Positions 1 to 15,579 of a stretch of 46,987 nt of DNA are shown piece after piece. The stretch comes from a candidate division WWE3 bacterium CG_4_9_14_0_2_um_filter_35_11 (GTDB lineage: Bacteria; Patescibacteriota; WWE3; 2-01-FULL-39-13). The translations under genes and the position numbers were made by a program. The notes beneath the pieces were generated by a model, which had not been told where the DNA came from, did no database searches, and saw nothing but the letters and a program-made list of their open reading frames with translations. The DNA is taken from the NCBI GenBank assembly GCA_002789015.1, contig PFSJ01000003.1, positions 1-46,987 on the forward strand. The letters are read 5' to 3'. Positions within the stretch are counted from its first letter, which is position 1, and every line of letters begins with the position of its first letter.

Positions 1-1266
1 GTTAAATCCCCAGTTGCCGGTAAAGTTGCTGTCGCTTATGGTGTTTGTGCCAAGGTCTAATGTTGTGATGTTTCCTGTCGTGTATGTGAGGGTTGTGCCA
101 TCTAATGTTACTATTGTTCCTGTTAGACTGTCTACATCTCCGGTGACTACTAAATTTCCTGTAATGTTCGTGTTTCCATTTACGTTTAATCTGTATGCTC
201 CCGGATCTATGGTGCCAATACCCACATTGTCATTAATTGCCGTTGGGTATAAACGGCCAAGAACTGAATTCCTCGTCCACACACCGGTTACACCCGCAAC
301 TACATCTGCAAGTTGTATGTCAAGCACATCAATTGAGGACGTGAAGGTTTGTCCGTCCGTGACATAGTTATCTTCTGCATAAACTCTATCACCCAAAGTT
401 TTTGATCCAAATGAATACAACTCTGAACCCTGTGCTAAATAGAGATCACCTTCAACATCCAAATCAGATTCTAAACTAAGATCATTTAGGAAATTTGCAT
501 CACCAGTTAGTGTCAAACCACCACGCCCAAAAATATCGCCAGCTACAACAATGTCATCTTCAATGTTTACCTTCTTATAAAAATATGCGTCTTCGTACAC
601 GTCAAGCTCTGCATTAACCTGCAAACTAGTAACGCCATACTTGGCATACTTGTCATCGAAATACAAAACCTTCTTATTTCTAGCATCTCTAACAAAAAAC
701 AAATCAGCTAAAAAACCGGCTAATAAATCATTATTATCAGTACTAGAAGAATCAGAAGAAACAGCTGTATCTTGACCTCCAAGTACCCTAGACTCAATCA
801 AAGGTTGAGGCACAATAGTAGCCTCATTTCTAATAAAAACAGCACGTAGTAAAAAGTAAGACAAAAGCCCAACAAACACCACCAGCCCAATCACAATGCT
901 AAATTTACTAAAATTATACTTTCGGTTTTTTGTGACAAAAGCTGCAGACTTATTCATACCGTGTACAGGAACCATGACAACTGGTGACGTTTTAAGGTTT
1001 ATTGATCCAGCAAATTTAATAACAGTAGAAATTATTCTCTTTTCTGTAGCAAGCGCTACATTAGTCGAAATCAAAAACTTCCTATAGTCCTCAACGTCGG
1101 TAGCAAAAAACGGGTCTTTCCCCTTCCAAGCTAAAAACTTCTTTAAATCAGAAATGTAATTTTTGATAGTTATCTTTGAAAAACCATTCGACTGGAGATA
1201 GGATTCAAATTCTTTTAAATATTCTTCATGACCCTTTTTCAAGGCCGTATCAGCAGGACTTTTCAC
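1..1266 (-). CDS. Partial surface protein: N-terminal SAM-like (tyrosine recombinase core-binding-like) domain, TM helix, extracellular beta-repeat region; runs off the left edge
   Basis: Manual minus-strand translation from GTG at 1266 is open for 422 codons to position 1: VKSPADTALKKGHEEYLKEFESYLQSNGFSKITIKNYISDLKKFLAWKGKDPFFATDVEDYRKFLISTNVALATEKRIISTVIKFAGSINL...FSIVIGLVVFVGLLSYFLLRAVFI...NVNGNTNITGNLVVTGDVDSLTG. Probably absent from the ORF track because it has no in-window stop. Confidence 0.85.
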   Translation of the reverse strand, partial: MKSPADTALKKGHEEYLKEFESYLQSNGFSKITIKNYISDLKKFLAWKGKDPFFATDVEDYRKFLISTNVALATEKRIISTVIKFAGSINLKTSPVVMVPVHGMNKSAAFVTKNRKYNFSKFSIVIGLVVFVGLLSYFLLRAVFIRNEATIVPQPLIESRVLGGQDTAVSSDSSSTDNNDLLAGFLADLFFVRDARNKKVLYFDDKYAKYGVTSLQVNAELDVYEDAYFYKKVNIEDDIVVAGDIFGRGGLTLTGDANFLNDLSLESDLDVEGDLYLAQGSELYSFGSKTLGDRVYAEDNYVTDGQTFTSSIDVLDIQLADVVAGVTGVWTRNSVLGRLYPTAINDNVGIGTIDPGAYRLNVNGNTNITGNLVVTGDVDSLTGTIVTLDGTTLTYTTGNITTLDLGTNTISDSNFTGNWGFN

Positions 1267-1330
1267 ATACGAAACAGTTCCCCGTCCGAAACTGTCGGAA
1301 TCAAGATAAACAGCTATATCTAAGTAAATT

Positions 1331-1358
1331 ATACGAATCGAGTACAAAGATGCAAGTA
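1331..1358 (-). promoter_or_regulatory. Putative promoter of the surface-protein gene
   Basis: Minus strand TTGCAT-16 bp-TATAAT (CTTTGTACTCGATTCG spacer), about 65 nt before the GTG start. Confidence 0.5.
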
Positions 1359-1499
1359 CCAAATCGCACTAGCGATAAAACCAGTAGAACCAAGGTACGC
1401 GACATCCCATAGCAAAACTGTATACGGGGGCATTTAATACTCAATCTAGCAGATTATAATGCCAGGAATGGACGCTAGTACAATTAATCTACCTACAGC

Positions 1500-4760: not shown

Positions 4761-6304
4761 TCAGGTTGTCCCTTTGAAATTTCTCTGAATTTATTTTTAT
4801 ATTCAGACAAAATTTCATTAAACTTTTCAAAATCACCTTCATTTCTAAATAAATCAAGAATATGAACTGCGTCATATATGTCTAAGTCTCGCTCTAGCTT
4901 ATATTGACCATCTCTCCACTTAATTGCTTGCTCATATTCCCTATTATTGGAAGCTTTTTCCTCTTGGATTTTTAACACAGACAACAAGGCTTTATAGTGA
5001 TCAGAGGCTCCAAATCTTTTTGACAAAGGAATTCTACGTTCTTTAGAATCATTTCTTTCCATTGCATCTACAATTCCGTTTCTTTGCCATTCATGAGCCG
5101 TGAACAGAATGTTCTTATATAAATCTTCGCCTTTATCTTTTATCTCGTCAGAAACATCTGGAATCGTAGTAATAACGGAAAAAAGTGCAAACATGCCTTT
5201 TTCTATCATTTCGACACTCCACCAAGGTTTCGCACTTGCCCACCACCACGGATCGCTATTTAGCGCGCGATCTAAAGCATCGCGCGCTTTCAACCATTGC
5301 CTTTTCTTTTCTTCTCCTTGTTTTTGATCAGAAGTCATTTCATCCCACTTTATAGTTTCTTCCAACATCTCTGGATACTTAACATCGGAATAATTAGAAT
5401 CATGTAACGCTGTAATAGCTAATGTCGCTAACTCCCATTCATATTCGTGAATTTTGTTTGACTTATCGAACCATAAATTAAAAGGATTTCCTGCATTTAC
5501 ATCCTTCATATTTGACGCCCAAGTAGAATCAAGTGGCATGACAGATTCACCTTTTGGGTAAGATGTCTTTAAATCGGATATCAAAACGTTGTCAAACGAG
5601 TCGGAATGCATAACCTCAAAAAATATTTTTTCAAGACCAGGTCTATGGTGTCCAAAAGTTTCACCATCCATGGCCGTTATTACATACTCATTTTTCGACA
5701 TTCTTTCTTTCATCGCGGCCTCTAAAGATTTAGCAGACCTTACAAACGCTCCCATAATCAAGTTACTTGGAGCTTTTTCTCTGAAATAAACATCGATATC
5801 AAGATCTCCGATTTTGCGTATTGTGTCATTAATTAGATCTCCGTTTTTTGCAGTCATTGAAACTTCATCTAAAATAACCCATTCATATCCTAAATCAGCA
5901 GCAACTTCTGCAACCTTTGGACTATACGCCATCTCTGGAGGAAAAAACCCTTTTGGATTAAAAGCATCACCAAAATATCTCTTATTTGTTTCATGATTTA
6001 ACATGATCTGCCTTTTAACCTCATCTTCTGGCAAGAACGGCAAAAATGCATGAAATTTGGCAGATCCAGTAAGTTCAACTCGTCCCATTTCGACAAGGAT
6101 TTTAATATCCTCGATAACATCACGATATCCGTGTTCAAATAACATTTCTGATAGAACTGCATTTATATTAAGCGTGATTTTTGTTTTAGGTTCCTTTAGA
6201 AAACCACGTATCAAAGGACGATAAGACTCATTTACGATTTTTTCTAATACACCTGGGTGTTGGTCACTTGGTTGATAAATGTGTAAGAAATGTGCCCATT
6301 TCAT
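4757..6304 (-). CDS. Glycoside hydrolase family 57 (alpha-amylase/glucanotransferase-like)
   Basis: MKWAHFLHIYQPSDQ...GSAKFHAFLPFLP...GFFPPEMAYSPKVAEVAADLGYEWVILDE, typical of GH57. Confidence 0.85.
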   Translation of the reverse strand: MKWAHFLHIYQPSDQHPGVLEKIVNESYRPLIRGFLKEPKTKITLNINAVLSEMLFEHGYRDVIEDIKILVEMGRVELTGSAKFHAFLPFLPEDEVKRQIMLNHETNKRYFGDAFNPKGFFPPEMAYSPKVAEVAADLGYEWVILDEVSMTAKNGDLINDTIRKIGDLDIDVYFREKAPSNLIMGAFVRSAKSLEAAMKERMSKNEYVITAMDGETFGHHRPGLEKIFFEVMHSDSFDNVLISDLKTSYPKGESVMPLDSTWASNMKDVNAGNPFNLWFDKSNKIHEYEWELATLAITALHDSNYSDVKYPEMLEETIKWDEMTSDQKQGEEKKRQWLKARDALDRALNSDPWWWASAKPWWSVEMIEKGMFALFSVITTIPDVSDEIKDKGEDLYKNILFTAHEWQRNGIVDAMERNDSKERRIPLSKRFGASDHYKALLSVLKIQEEKASNNREYEQAIKWRDGQYKLERDLDIYDAVHILDLFRNEGDFEKFNEILSEYKNKFREISKGQPE

Positions 6305-6309
6305 AATTT

Positions 6310-7857
6310 TTATAATTCAAACAAATCACCGTGGAAAAAACCTTCTTGTTTATAATGAATCGCCGTCTTATATAAGTCCTCGTATTTAGACGCAACTTCT
6401 GTCCAGGAAAAGTTCTGTCTAATCGCATTTTCTTGTATTTTTCTCCAAGTTTCTTTATTCCTGTATGTTTCAGTAGCACGAACTAACTGTCCATAAAGTG
6501 ACCAACCATCAAAATCCTTAAATTTAAAGCCAGTACCGTTTAAAGTTGCTGGGTCAAAATCAGTAACAGTATCATCTAAACCACCGGTAGCTCGTACGAT
6601 CGGCACAGCACCATATCTCATAGCTTCCATTTGAACAATTCCACATGGTTCAAACCTAGAAGGCATAACCATCATATCTGCACCGCCAAAAACAAGCTTT
6701 GGCAGTGTAAAATTTGGGAATGTGTGTACACCAACGATCTGTGGAAATTTCTTAGCAAGTCTTTGTGCAGCTTTCTCATAACCATTGTCTCCAGAGCCAA
6801 TCAAAACAAATTGAGCATTAAAGTCTTTTAAAAACTTTTCAAGAACTTCCAAAAGCAAATCAACGCCTTTTTGTTGATCTAAACGTCCAACATATCCAAT
6901 TAATGGAACTTCGGCTTTTTCTTTTAAACCAAATTCTTTTTGCAGGCTTAACTTATTTTCTGACCTTGCGTCAATAGAATTGATGTCAAAATTAGCTGGC
7001 AATAAAGGATCAGTTAGAGGATCAAACTTCTCATAATCAATTCCATTTATTACTCCAAATAATTTAGACCTTAGTTCAGTCAGTAACTTATCTAATCCCG
7101 AACCATACTCCCTAGTTAAAATTTGTCTTGCGTACCCATTTGAAACTGTATTGACTAAATCAGAGTAAATAATACCTCTTCTTAAAAAATTTAATGTTTT
7201 TAGTCGCCCACTAAAAAATTTAGGAATTTGAGATTTGCCGTCATCAAAATTCAATTCGCTACTTGGATCCACTGACTTTCCTTGAAAATGGATATTATGA
7301 ATGGTCAGCACGGTAGCAATATCTTCAAAAAATGGTGACGTTCTATATTTTGTAGCAACAATATTTGGGACAAGTGCAGTATGCCAGTCATGAGAATGAA
7401 TTATGTCTGGCTTCCAATCTAGTTTTTCAGAAATAAATTGCAAAGCTCCATAAGATAGCAAAGCCCATCTTACGTGATCATCTGAATAATTGTAAACATT
7501 AGACCTTTTTTCATAATATTCCATGTTTTCCAGGAAATACACGATGATTCCATCTTCCGTTACATGTTTTCTTATATTACAAATCAATTCAGTAGGTTTA
7601 CCATCTCCTTCGGCATATCCAGTAGGAACAGCCAAACCTTCAAAAACCATCTCCATTGGAAATTGTTTTTCATCAATAAAACTAAACCTTGGCATAAAAA
7701 TTCGGACATCATGCCCTTTTTTTAATAATGATTTTGATAAATATGCTATTACGCTGCTTAGCCCGCCTACATTAGAAAATGGAGTAACCTCTGCACCGAT
7801 ATGTAAAATTTTATATTTTGGTGAAGATTGACTTGAGGAGTTTAAAGGCTTTTTCAT
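6310..7857 (-). CDS. glgA: Starch/glycogen synthase (GT5), second paralog
   Basis: KILHIGAEVTPFSNVGGLSSVIAYLSKSL...RFEPCGIVQMEAMRYGAVPIVRATGGLDDTV. Confidence 0.92.
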   Translation of the reverse strand: MKKPLNSSSQSSPKYKILHIGAEVTPFSNVGGLSSVIAYLSKSLLKKGHDVRIFMPRFSFIDEKQFPMEMVFEGLAVPTGYAEGDGKPTELICNIRKHVTEDGIIVYFLENMEYYEKRSNVYNYSDDHVRWALLSYGALQFISEKLDWKPDIIHSHDWHTALVPNIVATKYRTSPFFEDIATVLTIHNIHFQGKSVDPSSELNFDDGKSQIPKFFSGRLKTLNFLRRGIIYSDLVNTVSNGYARQILTREYGSGLDKLLTELRSKLFGVINGIDYEKFDPLTDPLLPANFDINSIDARSENKLSLQKEFGLKEKAEVPLIGYVGRLDQQKGVDLLLEVLEKFLKDFNAQFVLIGSGDNGYEKAAQRLAKKFPQIVGVHTFPNFTLPKLVFGGADMMVMPSRFEPCGIVQMEAMRYGAVPIVRATGGLDDTVTDFDPATLNGTGFKFKDFDGWSLYGQLVRATETYRNKETWRKIQENAIRQNFSWTEVASKYEDLYKTAIHYKQEGFFHGDLFEL

Positions 7858-7881
7858 AACTTTCTGTTATTCTATCACACT

Positions 7882-7941
7882 AAAAAACCGCCTCTCCATA
7901 AACAAGTGTCCTGCCCATCACCTGCTTTGAAAGAAGCGGTT
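7882..7941 (-). terminator. Intrinsic terminator in the leader of glgA2 (near-symmetric)
   Basis: Minus AACCGCTTCTTT...GGAGAGGCGGTTTTTT: 12-bp stem (GU allowed) then a U-tract, ending about 25 nt before ATG 7857. Confidence 0.75.
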
Positions 7942-8121
7942 TTTTATTACCTTTACTTTATATCCGAATGGTTTTTCTTCGAAGGAATAAAGATAAAACC
8001 CTTTCCGTGAGGAGGATTGGAGGCAGTCAATTTTTAAGGATAATTGAATAATTCCAGATAACCAACCCCTGATGACCACCTGTCTCTCAGAAAGGATTCT
8101 ACCTTCATTTAGCAGTCCTAT
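7882..8121 (-). ncRNA. Structured leader or small RNA upstream of glgA2 (class unknown)
   Basis: Consensus promoter upstream. AAGGUAGAAUCCUUUCU pairs with GGAAAGGGUUUUAUCUU over about 17 contiguous bp; further inner stem GGGUUGG/CCAAUCC; ends at an intrinsic terminator. Confidence 0.5.
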
Positions 8122-8127
8122 AGCGAA

Positions 8128-8156
8128 ATAGTATAATCATCAGGAGGTTATGTCAA
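8128..8156 (-). promoter_or_regulatory. Consensus sigma70-type promoter
   Basis: Minus TTGACA-17 bp-TACTAT. Confidence 0.75.
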
Positions 8157-8173
8157 GTATTTTCATACTTAAG

Positions 8174-8207
8174 TGGGGGTAGCCCCCGTTTTTGAAGGGC
8201 TACCCTC
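8174..8207. repeat. GGGTAGCCC/GGGCTACCC palindromic repeat, copy 1
   Basis: gggggtagccc ... gggctaccctc inverted repeat immediately 3' of the 8211-9167 gene. Confidence 0.75.
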
Positions 8208-8210
8208 ATA

Positions 8211-9167
8211 TCATGCAGACATTAAGTGTTGTCTGAATTGTTTTACTAAATCTTCTTCGTTCCTGTTAGCGAGATCTCTCATCAAAACCTTGTCATCAAC
8301 TACTTTAAAACTACCTATTTCTTTTGATGGAACAAAAACTATGTCGGTGTTCACCAACACTCCAATATTGGAATCTTCACGATTTTGTACAGGAGTAAGT
8401 CTTAGCTCACTTTTCCATATTTGCATATCTTCTGGATTTGCATAAAAATGAAGCTTAGTAAAAGGCTTGATCGAAAAATGCAAAGATAGACCTGCGAATA
8501 AAGTGAATGCATATTCAAGATCCCTACTCATTGCAGTATCCTTGACTTTTCTTGCCAATTCTATTAAATCAGAATAATCGCTCTTATAATATCTGACATT
8601 AACATCATTCAAATCTAATGATTCATTCTTAGCTTCAATCACAGGGTTATCAATTACAGTAGAACTCTGACTAACTTCAGTGCTCATGATTTGCGATGAA
8701 AAAGAGTTACTATTCGTGGTGACTTGTGCTGCTTCTGGAGCAACCGGCCTAGTGTCAATTTCATTAAATGTCGGCCCTCTCAAGTCTTGAGATTGAAATG
8801 GCTTATCTTCTTTCAACCAATCCATACCAGGGACTTCAGGAACTTCAGAAACTTTATTTGAAGTTGAAATATAACGAGTTGTAGACACAGAAGGTGATGT
8901 AAAGACATCATTGTCTATTTCTACGTTTTTATTTTGATTAGCACTCACACTATCTAAGTTGCCGACTGTAGGATTAGCACCACCAAAACCTCCTGCATTA
9001 AGAAAGTCTAATATCTGGTCTTTAGTGAAACGATGCCTCCCTGACGCAGTTCGCATAGATTGGATTTTCCCGTCTTCCATATATCGATACAAAGTGCGAA
9101 GGCTTACGCCTAAAATATCTGCCACTTGGGTTGAGGTGTAGAGTTTATCTTTTAATTCTATTGACAT
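8211..9167 (-). CDS. MerR/excisionase-type HTH DNA-binding protein with a low-complexity linker and uncharacterised C-terminal domain
   Basis: LYTSTQVADILGVSLRTLYRYMEDGKIQSMRTASGRHRFTKDQILDFL. Confidence 0.8.
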   Translation of the reverse strand: MSIELKDKLYTSTQVADILGVSLRTLYRYMEDGKIQSMRTASGRHRFTKDQILDFLNAGGFGGANPTVGNLDSVSANQNKNVEIDNDVFTSPSVSTTRYISTSNKVSEVPEVPGMDWLKEDKPFQSQDLRGPTFNEIDTRPVAPEAAQVTTNSNSFSSQIMSTEVSQSSTVIDNPVIEAKNESLDLNDVNVRYYKSDYSDLIELARKVKDTAMSRDLEYAFTLFAGLSLHFSIKPFTKLHFYANPEDMQIWKSELRLTPVQNREDSNIGVLVNTDIVFVPSKEIGSFKVVDDKVLMRDLANRNEEDLVKQFRQHLMSA

Positions 9168-9458
9168 AAGTACAAGTTATAGGAATATGCCTGACTGGTC
9201 AAGACATAAGGGTTACTATGGGGTTGGGTGGGTGATAACTCGAGTCATATCGTACTATTTTGGTATAGCGACAGACGATGAAACTCCCTCGTGCAAGTCC
9301 TTGGCCTAGTAGCCGAGATCAACGACCAATTACGCCAAGTACGATAATACATGTACTGCTGTTTTAGTTCCATTGTCCTGCCAAGCCACGTGTAACAAAC
9401 CAGCAAATTAAAAAATAGCTTATTAGCTGTAAATAACAAACTTTGATATCATTTGTGT

Positions 9459-10673
9459 ATGAAAAATTTAGCTTCACTCTTGATTACCGTAGCTTCATTA
9501 ATTTTAATCACATCAGGAACCGTCCTATATAGTGAAGGCTGGAGAATCAATTTATCAGGCGAAAGCTCAAAGTTGACTGATGGCACGACAAGCCGTGTAC
9601 ATAAAACAGGAATGATAGCTGTAAGATCAATTCCAAACGGAGCCAAAGTTTATATAAACGACGTGTTAACTACTGCAACAGACGATACGATCGCATCATT
9701 AGTCCCAGGTGATTATAAAGTTAGAGTTGAACATGATGGATTCGAATCCTGGGAAAAAACATTAACAGTTTATCCAGAATTAGTAACAGATATTACCGCA
9801 GTATTAGTTCTTCAAAGTCCAAGGCTAGAGCCTTTAACAAATGCGGATGTAAAAGCATTTTCGCAGTCATCAAATCAAAACAACATTGCATTTTTAACAA
9901 AAAACCATGAAGAACCAGGAATATGGATACTTCCACTAACAGGATCTCCCTTGAACTTATTTAAAAGTTCTTCGAGGCTATTAATAGCAGACAATATAAA
10001 CGCCTCGCCATCATCAGGAGAAAACGTCTGGTGGTCATACTACGACAAAGAAATATTAGTTCAGATGAATACCAACGGATATTTGCTTTATGACATTTCA
10101 AACCAAACATCAACAAAATCAATCCCAACATCGATAACAGACGTGAAGGCAGTATTTGAAAAGTGGGACACAGATTGGAAATCTAATTTTTTGACAGATA
10201 AGATTGACAACTTAACGAACTCAAAAGATCAAGAAGTTCCAAAATCAATATTGAATAAATTAAAAACCGAAAAATCTACTTGGTCTCCAGACGATAAAAA
10301 ATTCTTTTTCGTAAACACAAATGAATCAGATAACAAAAAGGCTGACATCATTATCTATAACTCCGAATCGCCACTACCAATAGGAGAAAAGAGACTTTAT
10401 AACTCAATAGAAGTTTCGGATATTAAAAATACAACAATCCAATGGTACTCTGACTCTTATCACCTTATCTTGCTTGAAAAATCAGATTCAGTAGATAGCA
10501 ACATTTATACAATAAGCTTAATCAGGATAGATGGAACAAACAAAACTCCAATTTATACAGGTGAATTAGCCTCAAATCAGGCATATGCAACACCTTCAGG
10601 AGACAAAATAATAGTCCTTACCTCATTAAAAGAAAATTCACAAACCAATTTGTATGCCATTGCAATACGATAA
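9459..10673 (+). CDS. PEGA-domain membrane-anchored protein
   Basis: N-terminal TM segment, then GMIAVRSIPNGAKVYINDVLTTATDDTIASLVPGDYKVRVEHDGFESWEKTLTV (PEGA-like). Start taken at 9459. Confidence 0.75.
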   Translation: MKNLASLLITVASLILITSGTVLYSEGWRINLSGESSKLTDGTTSRVHKTGMIAVRSIPNGAKVYINDVLTTATDDTIASLVPGDYKVRVEHDGFESWEKTLTVYPELVTDITAVLVLQSPRLEPLTNADVKAFSQSSNQNNIAFLTKNHEEPGIWILPLTGSPLNLFKSSSRLLIADNINASPSSGENVWWSYYDKEILVQMNTNGYLLYDISNQTSTKSIPTSITDVKAVFEKWDTDWKSNFLTDKIDNLTNSKDQEVPKSILNKLKTEKSTWSPDDKKFFFVNTNESDNKKADIIIYNSESPLPIGEKRLYNSIEVSDIKNTTIQWYSDSYHLILLEKSDSVDSNIYTISLIRIDGTNKTPIYTGELASNQAYATPSGDKIIVLTSLKENSQTNLYAIAIR

Positions 10674-10684
10674 ACACATTTTGG

Positions 10685-11356
10685 TTACAAAACTAGGCGT
10701 CCTTTTACAACTCGTCGGTTTTGAGTCGTTCCCGGAGGGTCACAGGTTACCAAAGTAACAACGGGTTCCGCGTATTCTTGATCAAATGGCTTTGTATTCC
10801 AACCATGCACAATACTTGTTTCAAAAATGCTGTATACATAGCCTTTACCTTCATAATATATAACAACCGTGTCTCCAATTTCTAGTTTTGAAAGTAGGTT
10901 GAAAACCGTTGCATATGGGCCTAATTGCCAAAAGTTAAGTGAAGAATGTGCAAATATGAACATATTACCATTTTGGCCTGGAAGTGCAGTTCCACCTGCG
11001 TGTGCGACACCAGACCTTAATGCTTCCATGTAGGATTTCTCATTCGTGATATCTACATTTGCAACCACAGGCGCATTTACAGAAATTTTATCAATTATTA
11101 CATCAAAGTCCTGACTTACTGGAGTTGTCGATTCAATATTCTCGTAATCAAAGCTGTTTTCTTGTAGATTGCTTTGTGAATTTAACTGCTCGGAGGATAA
11201 AATCTCCTTTTTAGGTTCACTATATATAAGACCACCAACTTTAAGTTGATACACGACCTCGGAGTAAATAATTGGCGCATAAGTAAATAACGCTATGCCC
11301 AAGCCAATAATAAAAAATAAATCCCCTAGAACCTTTGTGAAAAATCGCAATATCAT
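10685..11356 (-). CDS. Sortase family transpeptidase
   Basis: N-terminal TM, GNMFIFAHSS (His), VTLVTCDPPGTTQNRRVVKGRL (TLVTC Cys and Arg). Confidence 0.88.
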   Translation of the reverse strand: MILRFFTKVLGDLFFIIGLGIALFTYAPIIYSEVVYQLKVGGLIYSEPKKEILSSEQLNSQSNLQENSFDYENIESTTPVSQDFDVIIDKISVNAPVVANVDITNEKSYMEALRSGVAHAGGTALPGQNGNMFIFAHSSLNFWQLGPYATVFNLLSKLEIGDTVVIYYEGKGYVYSIFETSIVHGWNTKPFDQEYAEPVVTLVTCDPPGTTQNRRVVKGRLVL

Positions 11357-11978
11357 ATTGCAAATATTATACTATACATAATTTACTCAAATGATATAAA
11401 GGCGTATTAGGTAGCCGTCACTTGACACCCCAGAGTGACAAAATTTGGCTAAAAATCAATGATATAGTATGAAAGAACCAAGGGCGACTATGGGATAGGG
11501 CGAATTAGCTCAATAAGTGATTTTCGAATCAGTCCTGAGTTCCCTGTGTGTATTTAGCCCTAAGGAGTCTATAAATTTGAATAAACCAAAAAGATCGTAA
11601 TTTGCATATACTATAATCTCCAAAAGAATATCGAAGATTAAGGCAATGAATACGATGTAAACTACGTACCCAAGAAGCGAAACTGGCATAAGGTCGGAGG
11701 TATCTCCGAGTACTTACGGTACTCGTTGCAGCTCCTAAAACTAGGCTATCGGCTTTATTAGTCGCCACTACAAACATAGCCACAACTATATTTACAAGCT
11801 TCAATTTGGGATAATATTGAAGATATTAGTGGTAAAAGTATTCGTCATGCAAAACATGTCTGTTTAGTACCTATGGGATGATTGCATTTCTGGAATTTTA
11901 AAAAAATATGACACTTGGACCAAAAAAGTAGCGTTGCCTTTTACCTACACTACTAGTAAAATCAACTAAATTAAGCAT

Positions 11979-12054
11979 GCTCTCGTAGCTCAGGGGATAG
12001 AGCACGGGTTTCCTAAACCCGGTGTCGTAGGTTCAAGTCCTACCGAGAGCACCA
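11979..12054 (+). tRNA. tRNA-Arg(CCT), CCA encoded
   Basis: GCTCTCGTAGCTCAGGGGATAGAGCACGGGTTTCCTAAACCCGGTGTCGTAGGTTCAAGTCCTACCGAGAGCACCA; full cloverleaf. Confidence 0.95.
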
Positions 12055-12134
12055 TAAGACTTGCTTGCTACTGCAAGCTTAGTCGACTGAGTACGCGGAG
12101 CGTGCACCAAATCCTCTTTGAGCAATGCGAAAAG

Positions 12135-12632
12135 TTATAATTCTGGAAGATATATATTCAAATATTCAGTCTTGTCGTACTCGAAAAGCTCATCTGCGTC
12201 GAAGAATCTAACGATTTCTTCTTTTGCAGATTCAACAGAATCAGACGAATGCACAATATTTGATGTATACCCCATACCAAAATCTCCTCTAATACTTCCT
12301 GCTTCGGCCGATCTTGCCTTTGTTGTACCACATAGAAGTCTTATAGCTTCAACGGCCTCTAATCCTTCAAGGACCATCGCTATTAGTGGTGAACTTTTCA
12401 TAAAATCGGATAATGATTTGAAGAATGGTTTGTCAATATGATGAGAATAATGGGCCTCAAGCAACATATCATCAACCTGCATCATCTTTAATGCAACTAA
12501 CTTCAAGCCTTTTCTTTCAAAACGAGAAATAACTTCACCGATTAAACCGCGTTGTAAACCGTCAGGCTTTACTAAAACTACTGTTCTTTCGAAATGGAGT
12601 GAACTTCTTATCTTTTCTAAATCTTGATTCAT
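12135..12632 (-). CDS. ndk: Nucleoside diphosphate kinase
   Basis: ERTVVLVKPDGLQRGLIGEVISRFERKGLKLVALKM...GSIRGDFGMGYTSNIVHSSDS. Confidence 0.93.
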   Translation of the reverse strand: MNQDLEKIRSSLHFERTVVLVKPDGLQRGLIGEVISRFERKGLKLVALKMMQVDDMLLEAHYSHHIDKPFFKSLSDFMKSSPLIAMVLEGLEAVEAIRLLCGTTKARSAEAGSIRGDFGMGYTSNIVHSSDSVESAKEEIVRFFDADELFEYDKTEYLNIYLPEL

Positions 12633-12651
12633 ATTTTAATAAAATTAAATA

Positions 12652-13557
12652 CTAAAAAGAAATCTTCTCCACATAATAATCTCCATCATCATATACTGTC
12701 AATATCGCAAGATTTGGCCTTTCAATATTTCTTTCTGAATTAGTTGACCCAATAATGTAGTGAAACAAAGTATTTCTCGTCTCATCAACGTTTTCGCTAA
12801 ATAAATGCTGATCACCTGCAAAAACTGCAGAAACTGAGTCCGTAGACCTTATCTGGTCTAACAGTAACTTTCTTTGAGTATCAACTGATGAAGAATATTC
12901 GCCCATACCTTTTCCCCAGAGCGACCTTATGCCAAAGTATATCGGATTATGGAAAAGTACGAAACTAGATGACGATATGTTGCCTGAAATAAAACGCATC
13001 TGAACATCATCGATACCTTCATACTCATCTGCATTATTTATTAAGAGAAACTTTACTCCGTTAATATCTACTACCCTATATGACTCTCCAAAAACACTCG
13101 AAAATGCTTCGATCCCTCTTGATTTCCATAAATCTCTGTCACCAGGAATTGGGTATATTTTCAAACCTGAATCTACAAAATACTTATTGGCATCAGCCAA
13201 ATCAACCGAGACACCTAAATGAGTAATATCCCCAAGGTGAAAAACATCACTGACACCTTGTTTTTTCAACTCTGACAAAGCTAATTCAAGATAATTCCAA
13301 TCACTTTCAGAATCAGAGATGAAACCAACTCTAGCGACAATTAGCTTATCCTTACTATCTAGATGTGTCTTCTGAGTACTTTTGAACAGAAAGTGACTAT
13401 CAATGCCAGCTTCTATACGTGACATAAGATCAGAATGAGATACAACATTTACTAGGCTTGAAAAAAATGACCCTAATAGTAATATTAATAGAAAAGCTGT
13501 GAGACATGAAACCGAACATCCGGAAATTAGACAACTTTTACCTGAAAACTTGTACAT
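12652..13557 (-). CDS. Membrane-anchored metallophosphoesterase
   Basis: VARVGFISDSESDWNYLELALSEL...DVFHLGDITHLG...YPIPGDRDLW...VFAGDQHLF; N-terminal TM. Confidence 0.78.
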   Translation of the reverse strand: MYKFSGKSCLISGCSVSCLTAFLLILLLGSFFSSLVNVVSHSDLMSRIEAGIDSHFLFKSTQKTHLDSKDKLIVARVGFISDSESDWNYLELALSELKKQGVSDVFHLGDITHLGVSVDLADANKYFVDSGLKIYPIPGDRDLWKSRGIEAFSSVFGESYRVVDINGVKFLLINNADEYEGIDDVQMRFISGNISSSSFVLFHNPIYFGIRSLWGKGMGEYSSSVDTQRKLLLDQIRSTDSVSAVFAGDQHLFSENVDETRNTLFHYIIGSTNSERNIERPNLAILTVYDDGDYYVEKISF

Positions 13558-13579
13558 AACTCACATAATATCATAGAAT

Positions 13580-13674
13580 AACGGCGGAAGCCCCAAGGCC
13601 AAAAAGAGTTGCTACCACGGTGATTTCTTCGAACCTGAAAAGGTATCAAACAAAGGCGCACTCTGATAGCCGTT
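13580..13674 (-). ncRNA. Candidate small structured RNA (class unknown)
   Basis: 95 nt with nested pairs AACGGC/GCCGUU, AGAGU/ACUCU and UUGAUACC/GGUAGCAA; -10-like TATTAT about 11 nt upstream. Confidence 0.3.
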
Positions 13675-13704
13675 AGATTTCACTATAATATAAAGAAGAT
13701 TCTA

Positions 13705-15579
13705 TTATTTAAGAGAATCTGGTGAAGATATACCTATTAATTTCATACACCTAGACAAAACAATAGATGTAGAAAGTGTTAGATCCAAGCGGAATTCCTC
13801 CTGTTCGGATCCTATTATTTTGCATGAATTATAGAAAGCGTTAAACGATTTACTCAAATCAAATAAATATTTGCAAATATAATGAGGAGCCGATTCATTT
13901 GCTGACCTAAAAATAATATCTTCAAATCTAAATAGCAATTTTAAAATTTCTAGCTCAAACTCATTCAGTCCAAAAGAATAACTCTCTGCACCTCCATAAT
14001 CACTTGAGGTTCCAATGTCCCCCTTTGACATAACGCTTTGCGCACGAGCGTAAGTATACTGAACATATGGCCCACTGAAACCTTTTTGATCTAATGCACT
14101 TGAAATATCAAACGTAATATCCTGATATGTATCATATTTTAATAATTCAAACTTTATTGCTCCAAATACAACTTCATCAATAGCACTAAAAGAACCAAAC
14201 TGATTTAATAAAGAATCCCTTAGCGTTTCAATAAATGTAGATATCGTGACAACAGTTCCCTTCCTTCCGCTCATTTTCACAACGCTACTCTCGGAGTTAG
14301 CATCTTTTAAAAAAACAAACCCGTAATTCACATGATGATAGTTATCAGCATACTTCGAGTACCCAAGAACTCTTAGAGCCTCTTTTACACCTTCTTGAGG
14401 ATATGTTTGAGTTGTATCAATAATATTAACTATAGATTCAGCACTATTAAAAACATTGTTGAGAGTTTCTCCGTTATCAGAATCGGTTGCATAAAGAAGA
14501 CTATCCTGTGTACCCCAGTCCAAAACCTCATACTTAAAATCTTTTATTACGCCAAATTTCCAAAGATGATAAGCTATGTCATTGCCTGTATATGTAGGAA
14601 TTCCGTTAGACCTGACAATGACCTTATCGTCACTCATTGGCATCTTTACGAGCCAACAGCCGACCCTCCCTCCTTTTGTTGATTTATAAAACGCAGGACT
14701 TGCCTTTAATAGGTCAAACGTTGCCTCCCATAATTTGTTTTTGATTATGTCGCTTTCTTTTACTACCAGATCATACTCAATTGATAAATGTCCAAATAAA
14801 ACCAATGTTGCTTTCAAAATTGCGTCAGTAATCGAAATTGCAATTTTTGAATCTTCTGAATTCTGCGCAACAATTCTCCTTTGAATCTCTTCTTTCTCAG
14901 ATTTCAGTTCTGTTGAAGACTCCATTCTCTTTTCTATATCAACATAAGCCCTTGAGGCCCATTCCAGAACGGCTTTGCAATTTTCAAGTGAAACATCCTT
15001 AAATGGAATAAATTGCTTATTATAAGCTAATACAATTGAGGCGATTTGTTGCCCAACATCATTTTGATAATACTGAACAGTAACATCATTCCCAACAAAA
15101 CTTAAAATCTTTGACAAAGAATCACCAATACAAGCATTCCTCAAATGCCCAATATGAGGCTCTTTATTCGGGTTAATCTGCGTATGCTCTAACGAAATCT
15201 TCTTATCGCTAAGCTTAAATCCATTGAGATCACGAACATCAAACATATTTTTTACAAAAAAATCATTTGATAAATAGAAATTTATAAACCCGGGTCCTGC
15301 GACTTCAACCTTTGATATATTTTTTGATATAGATTTTTTTATTATGTTTGAGATCTTTTCTGCAAGCTCCTTTGGACTACTCGCAATAGACTTTGCACTT
15401 GGAAAAAGCTTCATCGCAACATTACAGGCATAATCTCCATTTGCAGAATCGAAAGGACGTTCAATAAGATAATCAGTTGAACTAATATTCAATTCAGCTA
15501 ATGAGTTATTAATAAGTTGTTCAATTTCTAAAAAAGCATTGTTCATCTCTGTCATTTTACAATAAATATTGTCATTCAA
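13705..15579 (-). CDS. argS: Arginyl-tRNA synthetase
   Basis: SLEHTQINPNKEPHIGHLRNACIGDSLSKIL; QYYQNDVGQQIA; SGRKGTVVTI; GFSGPYVQYTYARAQSVM. Confidence 0.93.
   Translation of the reverse strand: MNDNIYCKMTEMNNAFLEIEQLINNSLAELNISSTDYLIERPFDSANGDYACNVAMKLFPSAKSIASSPKELAEKISNIIKKSISKNISKVEVAGPGFINFYLSNDFFVKNMFDVRDLNGFKLSDKKISLEHTQINPNKEPHIGHLRNACIGDSLSKILSFVGNDVTVQYYQNDVGQQIASIVLAYNKQFIPFKDVSLENCKAVLEWASRAYVDIEKRMESSTELKSEKEEIQRRIVAQNSEDSKIAISITDAILKATLVLFGHLSIEYDLVVKESDIIKNKLWEATFDLLKASPAFYKSTKGGRVGCWLVKMPMSDDKVIVRSNGIPTYTGNDIAYHLWKFGVIKDFKYEVLDWGTQDSLLYATDSDNGETLNNVFNSAESIVNIIDTTQTYPQEGVKEALRVLGYSKYADNYHHVNYGFVFLKDANSESSVVKMSGRKGTVVTISTFIETLRDSLLNQFGSFSAIDEVVFGAIKFELLKYDTYQDITFDISSALDQKGFSGPYVQYTYARAQSVMSKGDIGTSSDYGGAESYSFGLNEFELEILKLLFRFEDIIFRSANESAPHYICKYLFDLSKSFNAFYNSCKIIGSEQEEFRLDLTLSTSIVLSRCMKLIGISSPDSLK

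Follow-up and report, generated by a model that had tools for sequence, protein, structure and literature searches.

The window analysed here, an entire contig of 46,987 nucleotides (G000:C24), belongs to a candidate division WWE3 genome (G000; 750 kb in 31 contigs) whose sampled relatives are members of the candidate phyla radiation (CPR)/Patescibacteria. At its left edge, on the minus strand, lies the 5' part of a gene that encodes a SAM-like core-binding domain of tyrosine recombinases, a single transmembrane (TM) helix and the start of a fibre (Table 1); because the window is the complete contig, this SAM-TM-fibre gene is truncated by the assembly. An earlier note, made from the sequence alone, had described a surface protein in which a helical, XerC/XerD-like segment is followed by a TM anchor and a repeat region, and the helical, TM and repeat segments that it quoted were all found. 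The reading frame is open without a break from the window edge to position 1362. Within it the GTG at 1266 is the likely start, and it was favoured because the 24-residue lead that it leaves ahead of the SAM domain equals that of the homolog in a family relative (G002), which begins with ATG.

The SAM and TM segments are not joined by a frameshift, since the sister species of the same genus (G001) has the same frame (56% identity over the segment) and so has G002, in a frame of 2,287 amino acids. The proposal that the gene is very large is supported. In both G001 and G002 the gene stands in the same glgA-linked context. The non-coding leader is about 95% identical to that of G001, whereas the flanking DNA is about 65% identical and synonymous coding sites have diverged, and the leader of G002 has a related inverted repeat ahead of the start, with arms that are changed yet still paired. 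An RNA element in the leader was considered and rejected, as no Rfam match was obtained and its fold was no better than that of shuffled sequences.

Table 1. Features at the left edge of the window
Feature	Positions	Strand	Basis or remarks
SAM-TM-fibre gene	1..1266	minus	422 codons from the GTG at 1266 to the contig end, where the gene is truncated
Start of exported fibre region (ectodomain)	1..831	minus	includes NVGIGT.. repeat at about 145-228; repeat type common to complete relatives
Single TM helix, predicted signal anchor, N-in/C-out	832..903	minus	hydropathy 2.6, AlphaFold helix, family positive-inside bias
SAM-like core-binding domain of tyrosine recombinases, four helices	991..1218 (approximate)	minus	Pfam, PF02899 (1012-1218), AlphaFold, Foldseek
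Conserved non-coding leader	1267..1372	minus	TATAAT (1333-1328) and inverted repeat ACAGTT-N10-AACTGT (1274-1295)

A recombinase-type domain, a TM helix and a fibre

The XerC/XerD-type fold proposed for the N-terminal segment was borne out by Pfam, AlphaFold2 and Foldseek. The window protein matched Phage_int_SAM_4, _5 and _1 slightly under the Pfam cut-off (E = 1e-4 to 2e-3), and a genome search with PF02899 placed the domain barely over it (22.7 bits versus a cut-off of 22.3); in the relative from the closed genome G051, Phage_int_SAM_1 matched two stretches with E = 2e-20. An AlphaFold2 model of the window domain, built on a 47-row alignment, consisted of four helices with a pLDDT of 97-98, and its leading Foldseek matches were XerA, integron integrase, lambda Int and Cre, with E-values no lower than 3e-3 and a probability near 1 (1.7 A over 80 columns for the integron integrase). 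The tandem SAM1-SAM2 model of the G051 relative was equally confident and matched XerD and isolated core-binding domains. The catalytic domain (PF00589), which holds the RKHRH pentad and the Tyr nucleophile, is absent from the window protein, in which the SAM domain is followed by the TM helix and the repeats, and the sole PF00589 matches of the genome are two complete tyrosine recombinases encoded elsewhere, on contigs C2 and C20. As a separate observation, the PDB entry that the tandem SAM profile matched best was chain 14 of 9i5v (E = 8e-11), a chain named ribosome-associated inhibitor RaiA that has a Xer-type N-terminus.

The large relatives also have one TM helix, and an excess of K/R precedes it in 60 of 82 rows, the opposite bias being seen in 12 (the rows are not independent). 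These data are compatible with the predicted N-in/C-out topology. The TM anchor and the exported repeat region of the earlier note are supported. The domain order in complete relatives is SAM-TM-fibre-S74, with Gp34_trimer, Peptidase_S74 and tail-fibre domains at the C-terminal end; in the G051 relative the matches were to Gp34_trimer (3e-20), Peptidase_S74 (8.5e-16) and a PHROG long-tail-fibre family (2e-33), and both G051 and G310 carry SAM and S74 within one open reading frame (ORF). The S74 end that had been anticipated for the window protein, itself truncated, is probable in view of the relatives and of the single S74 of the genome on contig C30, but the trimeric autotransporter-like regions suggested with it were not found, the relatives being phage-tail-fibre-like. 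The fibre would very probably be trimeric, the Gp34_trimer domain of the G051 relative being an indirect indication. We hold the SAM-TM-fibre identity and architecture of the window protein with high confidence.

A phage origin of the gene was considered and rejected, as a scan of viral contigs keyed to the post-TM motif matched 50 stretches, of which none was confirmed as a relative. In another genome, an S74 fibre (L181, G005:C7:12001-22000; 5088-8645, minus strand) has a different helical cytoplasmic segment ahead of its TM helix; a MerR-like N-terminus seen there by eye was discarded, Pfam and PDB support being absent.

Recurrence, constraint and split forms

The observation of the earlier note proved broader than reported there, the architecture being recurrent across the CPR. 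Of the 389 CPR genomes sampled, about 25 combine SAM, TM and fibre, the SAM domain being single or double; this figure was counted from match rows, many of the other rows being true Xer proteins or fibres that lack SAM. A scan of GTDB genomes keyed to the post-TM motifs LS[FY]QGRL and TPDQDGIF returned 80 loci, mainly from Microgenomates (Woese-, Levy-, Roizman-, Collier-, Shapiro- and Pacebacteria), and because of these motifs it misses lineages such as that of the window itself. Among 68 scored ORFs with a TM helix, 38 had two SAM domains and 30 had one. Closed chromosomes from other CPR members (G051; CP055308.1, CP011214.1) show the same join of SAM and fibre. The suggestion of an exapted recombinase is supported in the form of a recurrent family of core-binding domains without a catalytic domain.

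A tree of 153 domains placed 19 of the 20 Xer core-binding domains from CPR genomes in one clade (support 98), apart from the fibre domains, and many recent captures from Xer are therefore disfavoured. A recent Xer fusion was likewise not favoured on this ground, although trees of about 90 columns resolve little; with so few columns and an unresolved backbone, the origin of the fibre domains is not dated. The comparison of the window with G001 gave dN/dS values of 0.15 for the SAM domain, 0.26 for the ectodomain (with dS saturated) and about 1 for the TM helix, and the SAM domain is the most constrained part of the protein and under purifying selection. In the fibre SAM domains R157 is invariant, and basic residues occur in most copies at alignment positions 43, 158, 163 and 164, on helices 2 and 4; R157 and positions 158 and 163 are common to the fibre domains and CPR Xer.

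At 21 loci a break in the loop that links helix 2 to helix 3 divides the second SAM domain (SAM2) over two ORFs. The first ORF, which stops after helix 2, encodes a soluble protein with SAM1 and half of SAM2, and the second, which begins just before helix 3 where its start is assignable, encodes the other half with the TM helix and the fibre. Chromosome-level records are among these loci (CP066686.1, CP011210.1, CP066689.1), and L093 was not counted, being probably a frameshift. The first ORFs end with TAA, TAG or TGA, all three frame relations occur, and the gaps range from -56 nt to about 7 kb, some of them holding whole genes. Because stops, frames and gaps vary in this way, the halves are separate polypeptides and not products of recoding; on the same grounds, and in view of where the second ORFs start, a programmed frameshift or stop read-through was rejected. 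Split and fused forms have interchanged several times, and the N-terminal half is degenerate in 7 of the 21 loci while the C-terminal half on the fibre is retained. The two halves may rejoin as one domain. In the gaps of L082, L088 and L094, ORFs resembling a 23S rRNA-intervening-sequence/bAvd-like protein were noticed by eye.

A probable 3' end on another contig

Peptidase_S74 occurs once in the genome, at the start of contig C30 and in a fibre frame. The fibre repeat type is found at two places only, C24 and C30, and in G002 a single contig carries both SAM and S74, so that the 3' end of the window's gene is probably on C30. The two domains of G002 follow in order on the same strand, 15 kb apart; there is an assembly gap, and no single intact frame holds both.

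On C30 (L160, G000:C30 1-4982) the fibre is interrupted after S74 by an N-intein and a stop. These are followed by a PD-(D/E)XK-like ORF that includes a zinc ribbon, a helical ORF of 132 amino acids, a C-intein and a fibre end of 630 amino acids. The two intein ORFs carry the signatures C-V-T-G-D-T (Cys1), TTANHPYL (TxxH, block B) and GILAHN|T (HN and the +1 nucleophile), and the profile TIGR01443 scored over the cut-off and TIGR01445 slightly under it. G001 has the same arrangement (L179, G001:C7 2-6641), the last three ORFs being 81-90% identical. The element is probably a natural split intein within a surface protein and, since it interrupts the fibre, full-length fibre would need trans-splicing. 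As in other split inteins of fractured genes, each half has an ORF of its own and a nuclease-like gene separates the two, but here the intein lies in a surface fibre and the PD-(D/E)XK-like ORF is only a candidate homing enzyme.

Some further observations concern these fibres. An element of 40-50 nt (..AATGTCGGCACTGGGACG) stands in frame in several ORFs of both loci (L160 691-732, 1376-1425, 2813-2862 and 2929-2969; L179 2546, 4716 and 5373). It resembles the NVGIGT coding repeat of the fibre, its insertion places differ in part between G000 and G001, and its exact core is confined to C30 within G000. The G002 fibre (L016, G002:C7:21001-41000, 7492-14337) contains four continuous inteins, one with an NYN domain and the others with different inserted domains.

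Possible roles of the foot, and neighbouring genes

The best overall explanation that we can offer, and one to which we give an even chance, is that the window encodes the N-terminal portion of a giant, trimeric surface protein of type II (N-in, C-out) built like a phage tail fibre, with an exapted recombinase domain as its cytoplasmic foot, whose catalytic domain would have been lost or never present. The single TM helix would take the protein into the Sec pathway for export, and the fibre would fold with S74/Gp34-type trimerisation domains and act outside the cell, most likely in attachment. At the inner face of the membrane the trimer would then have three core-binding domains where SAM is single and six where it is tandem, and there the foot might grip DNA, as a nucleoid-membrane tether, like the link to the chromosome proposed in the earlier note, or as a membrane-tethered regulator. 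In XerH the N-terminal helical domain sits inserted in the DNA major groove (PMC5241119). As far as can be judged from sequence, a DNA grip is plausible, because the basic residues of helices 2 and 4 are retained family-wide, and we put a DNA-binding role of the foot at a little short of even chances.

Several points weigh against this explanation. The window domain keeps the basic residues at positions 43, 157 and 164 but has none at 158 and 163, so that two of the four basic positions of helix 4 are lost. The middle of the gene is missing, the link between C24 and C30 being inferred, and the occurrence of SAM2 in two polypeptides in many lineages would also fit a docking module. The latter is the main rival, and we consider it quite possible, though short of probable: the SAM domains would attach the fibre to partners in the cytoplasm, or would attach to one another, and, in the split lineages, the soluble protein would dock on the half-domain of the TM fibre by fragment complementation. 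The 21 split loci with their separate polypeptides, the persistence of the fibre-borne half where its partner is degenerate and the repeated interchange of split and fused forms all favour docking, but a reconstituted domain could still bind DNA, and the most conserved polar residues are the basic ones on helices 2 and 4.

The remaining explanations fared worse. The weak first matches to SAM families might suggest a functionless relic, left by an integrase gene whose insertion had put it in frame ahead of a fibre gene, but the retention of the segment across many CPR lineages, its tandem duplication and its low dN/dS largely refute this, and we judge it very improbable. An assembly chimera or frameshift that joined an integrase fragment to a surface gene, for which the run of the gene off the contig could be cited, is refuted by the same join in G001, G002 and the closed chromosomes, and its probability is negligible. 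Finally, the two intact tyrosine recombinases of the genome could supply a catalytic domain in trans to a working recombinase, e.g. for switching of fibre genes; this is highly unlikely, as the foot is tethered to the membrane and devoid of catalytic residues, and neither an invertible segment nor an att-like site came to light, though such sites were not systematically searched for.

Returning to the exapted recombinase foot, the fibre SAM domains share with Xer and phage tyrosine recombinases (XerA 5hxy, XerD 1a0p, VchIntIA 2a3v) the four-helix fold, the SxxT..Y..D..F..W and R-x-x-S motifs and a basic helix 4, but they are followed by a TM helix and a fibre instead of a catalytic domain and form groups of their own apart from CPR Xer. 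Two sequential core-binding domains, like the tandem domains of the 38 relatives above, are also found in RitA recombinases, mobile-element enzymes that, unlike the fibre proteins, retain the catalytic domain (PMC8138268). The SPbeta master repressor MrpR likewise reuses a recombinase fold without recombination, although it is soluble and has a degenerate catalytic domain (PMC10516654), whereas the fibre protein has only the core-binding domain on a membrane fibre. MYRF (PMC3742443), a membrane-bound transcription factor that carries a phage tailspike chaperone, is similarly a type-II protein with a DNA-binding-type domain, one TM helix and S74/ICA. The DNA-binding domains are unrelated, however, and the MYRF-like arrangement, with ICA/S74 on the side of the DNA-binding domain and release by self-cleavage, was not found, the order in complete relatives placing S74 at the far, exported end. 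With phage long tail fibres the protein shares the repeat type, Peptidase_S74, Gp34_trimer and PHROG tail-fibre matches, but it is chromosomal and membrane-anchored, and there are no phage genes among the neighbours read. No description of the SAM-TM-fibre architecture was found in the literature searched, the coverage of which is incomplete, especially for subscription papers.

A more far-reaching idea, which we regard as speculative and rather unlikely, is a membrane-spanning device in which recombinase-derived, DNA-binding feet would physically connect the chromosome with a trimeric attachment fibre outside the cell, in outside-in signalling or nucleoid anchoring, with the foot assembled from two polypeptides in some lineages and the fibre completed by trans-splicing in the window's genus. 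To our knowledge, the ways in which CPR bacteria recognise a host and hold on to it are for the most part poorly understood, and surface proteins whose build has yet to be worked out account for many of their largest genes. With the present results, one class of giant CPR fibres gains an architecture that recurs and can be recognised, along with a testable hypothesis on its inner end; the results also offer a natural split domain with both halves expressible and what is probably a natural split intein within a surface protein.

As for the genes around the SAM gene in other genomes, a conserved run of secreted proteins, mostly without a Pfam family, and a Big_1 membrane protein are encoded upstream of it in L047, L029, L040, L042 and L100. 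An O-antigen-ligase/TPR gene follows it in L047, as it follows the fibre genes of L017, L020 and L021, and in L100 the fibre is followed by a 23S rRNA-intervening-sequence/bAvd-like helical protein (13414-14604).
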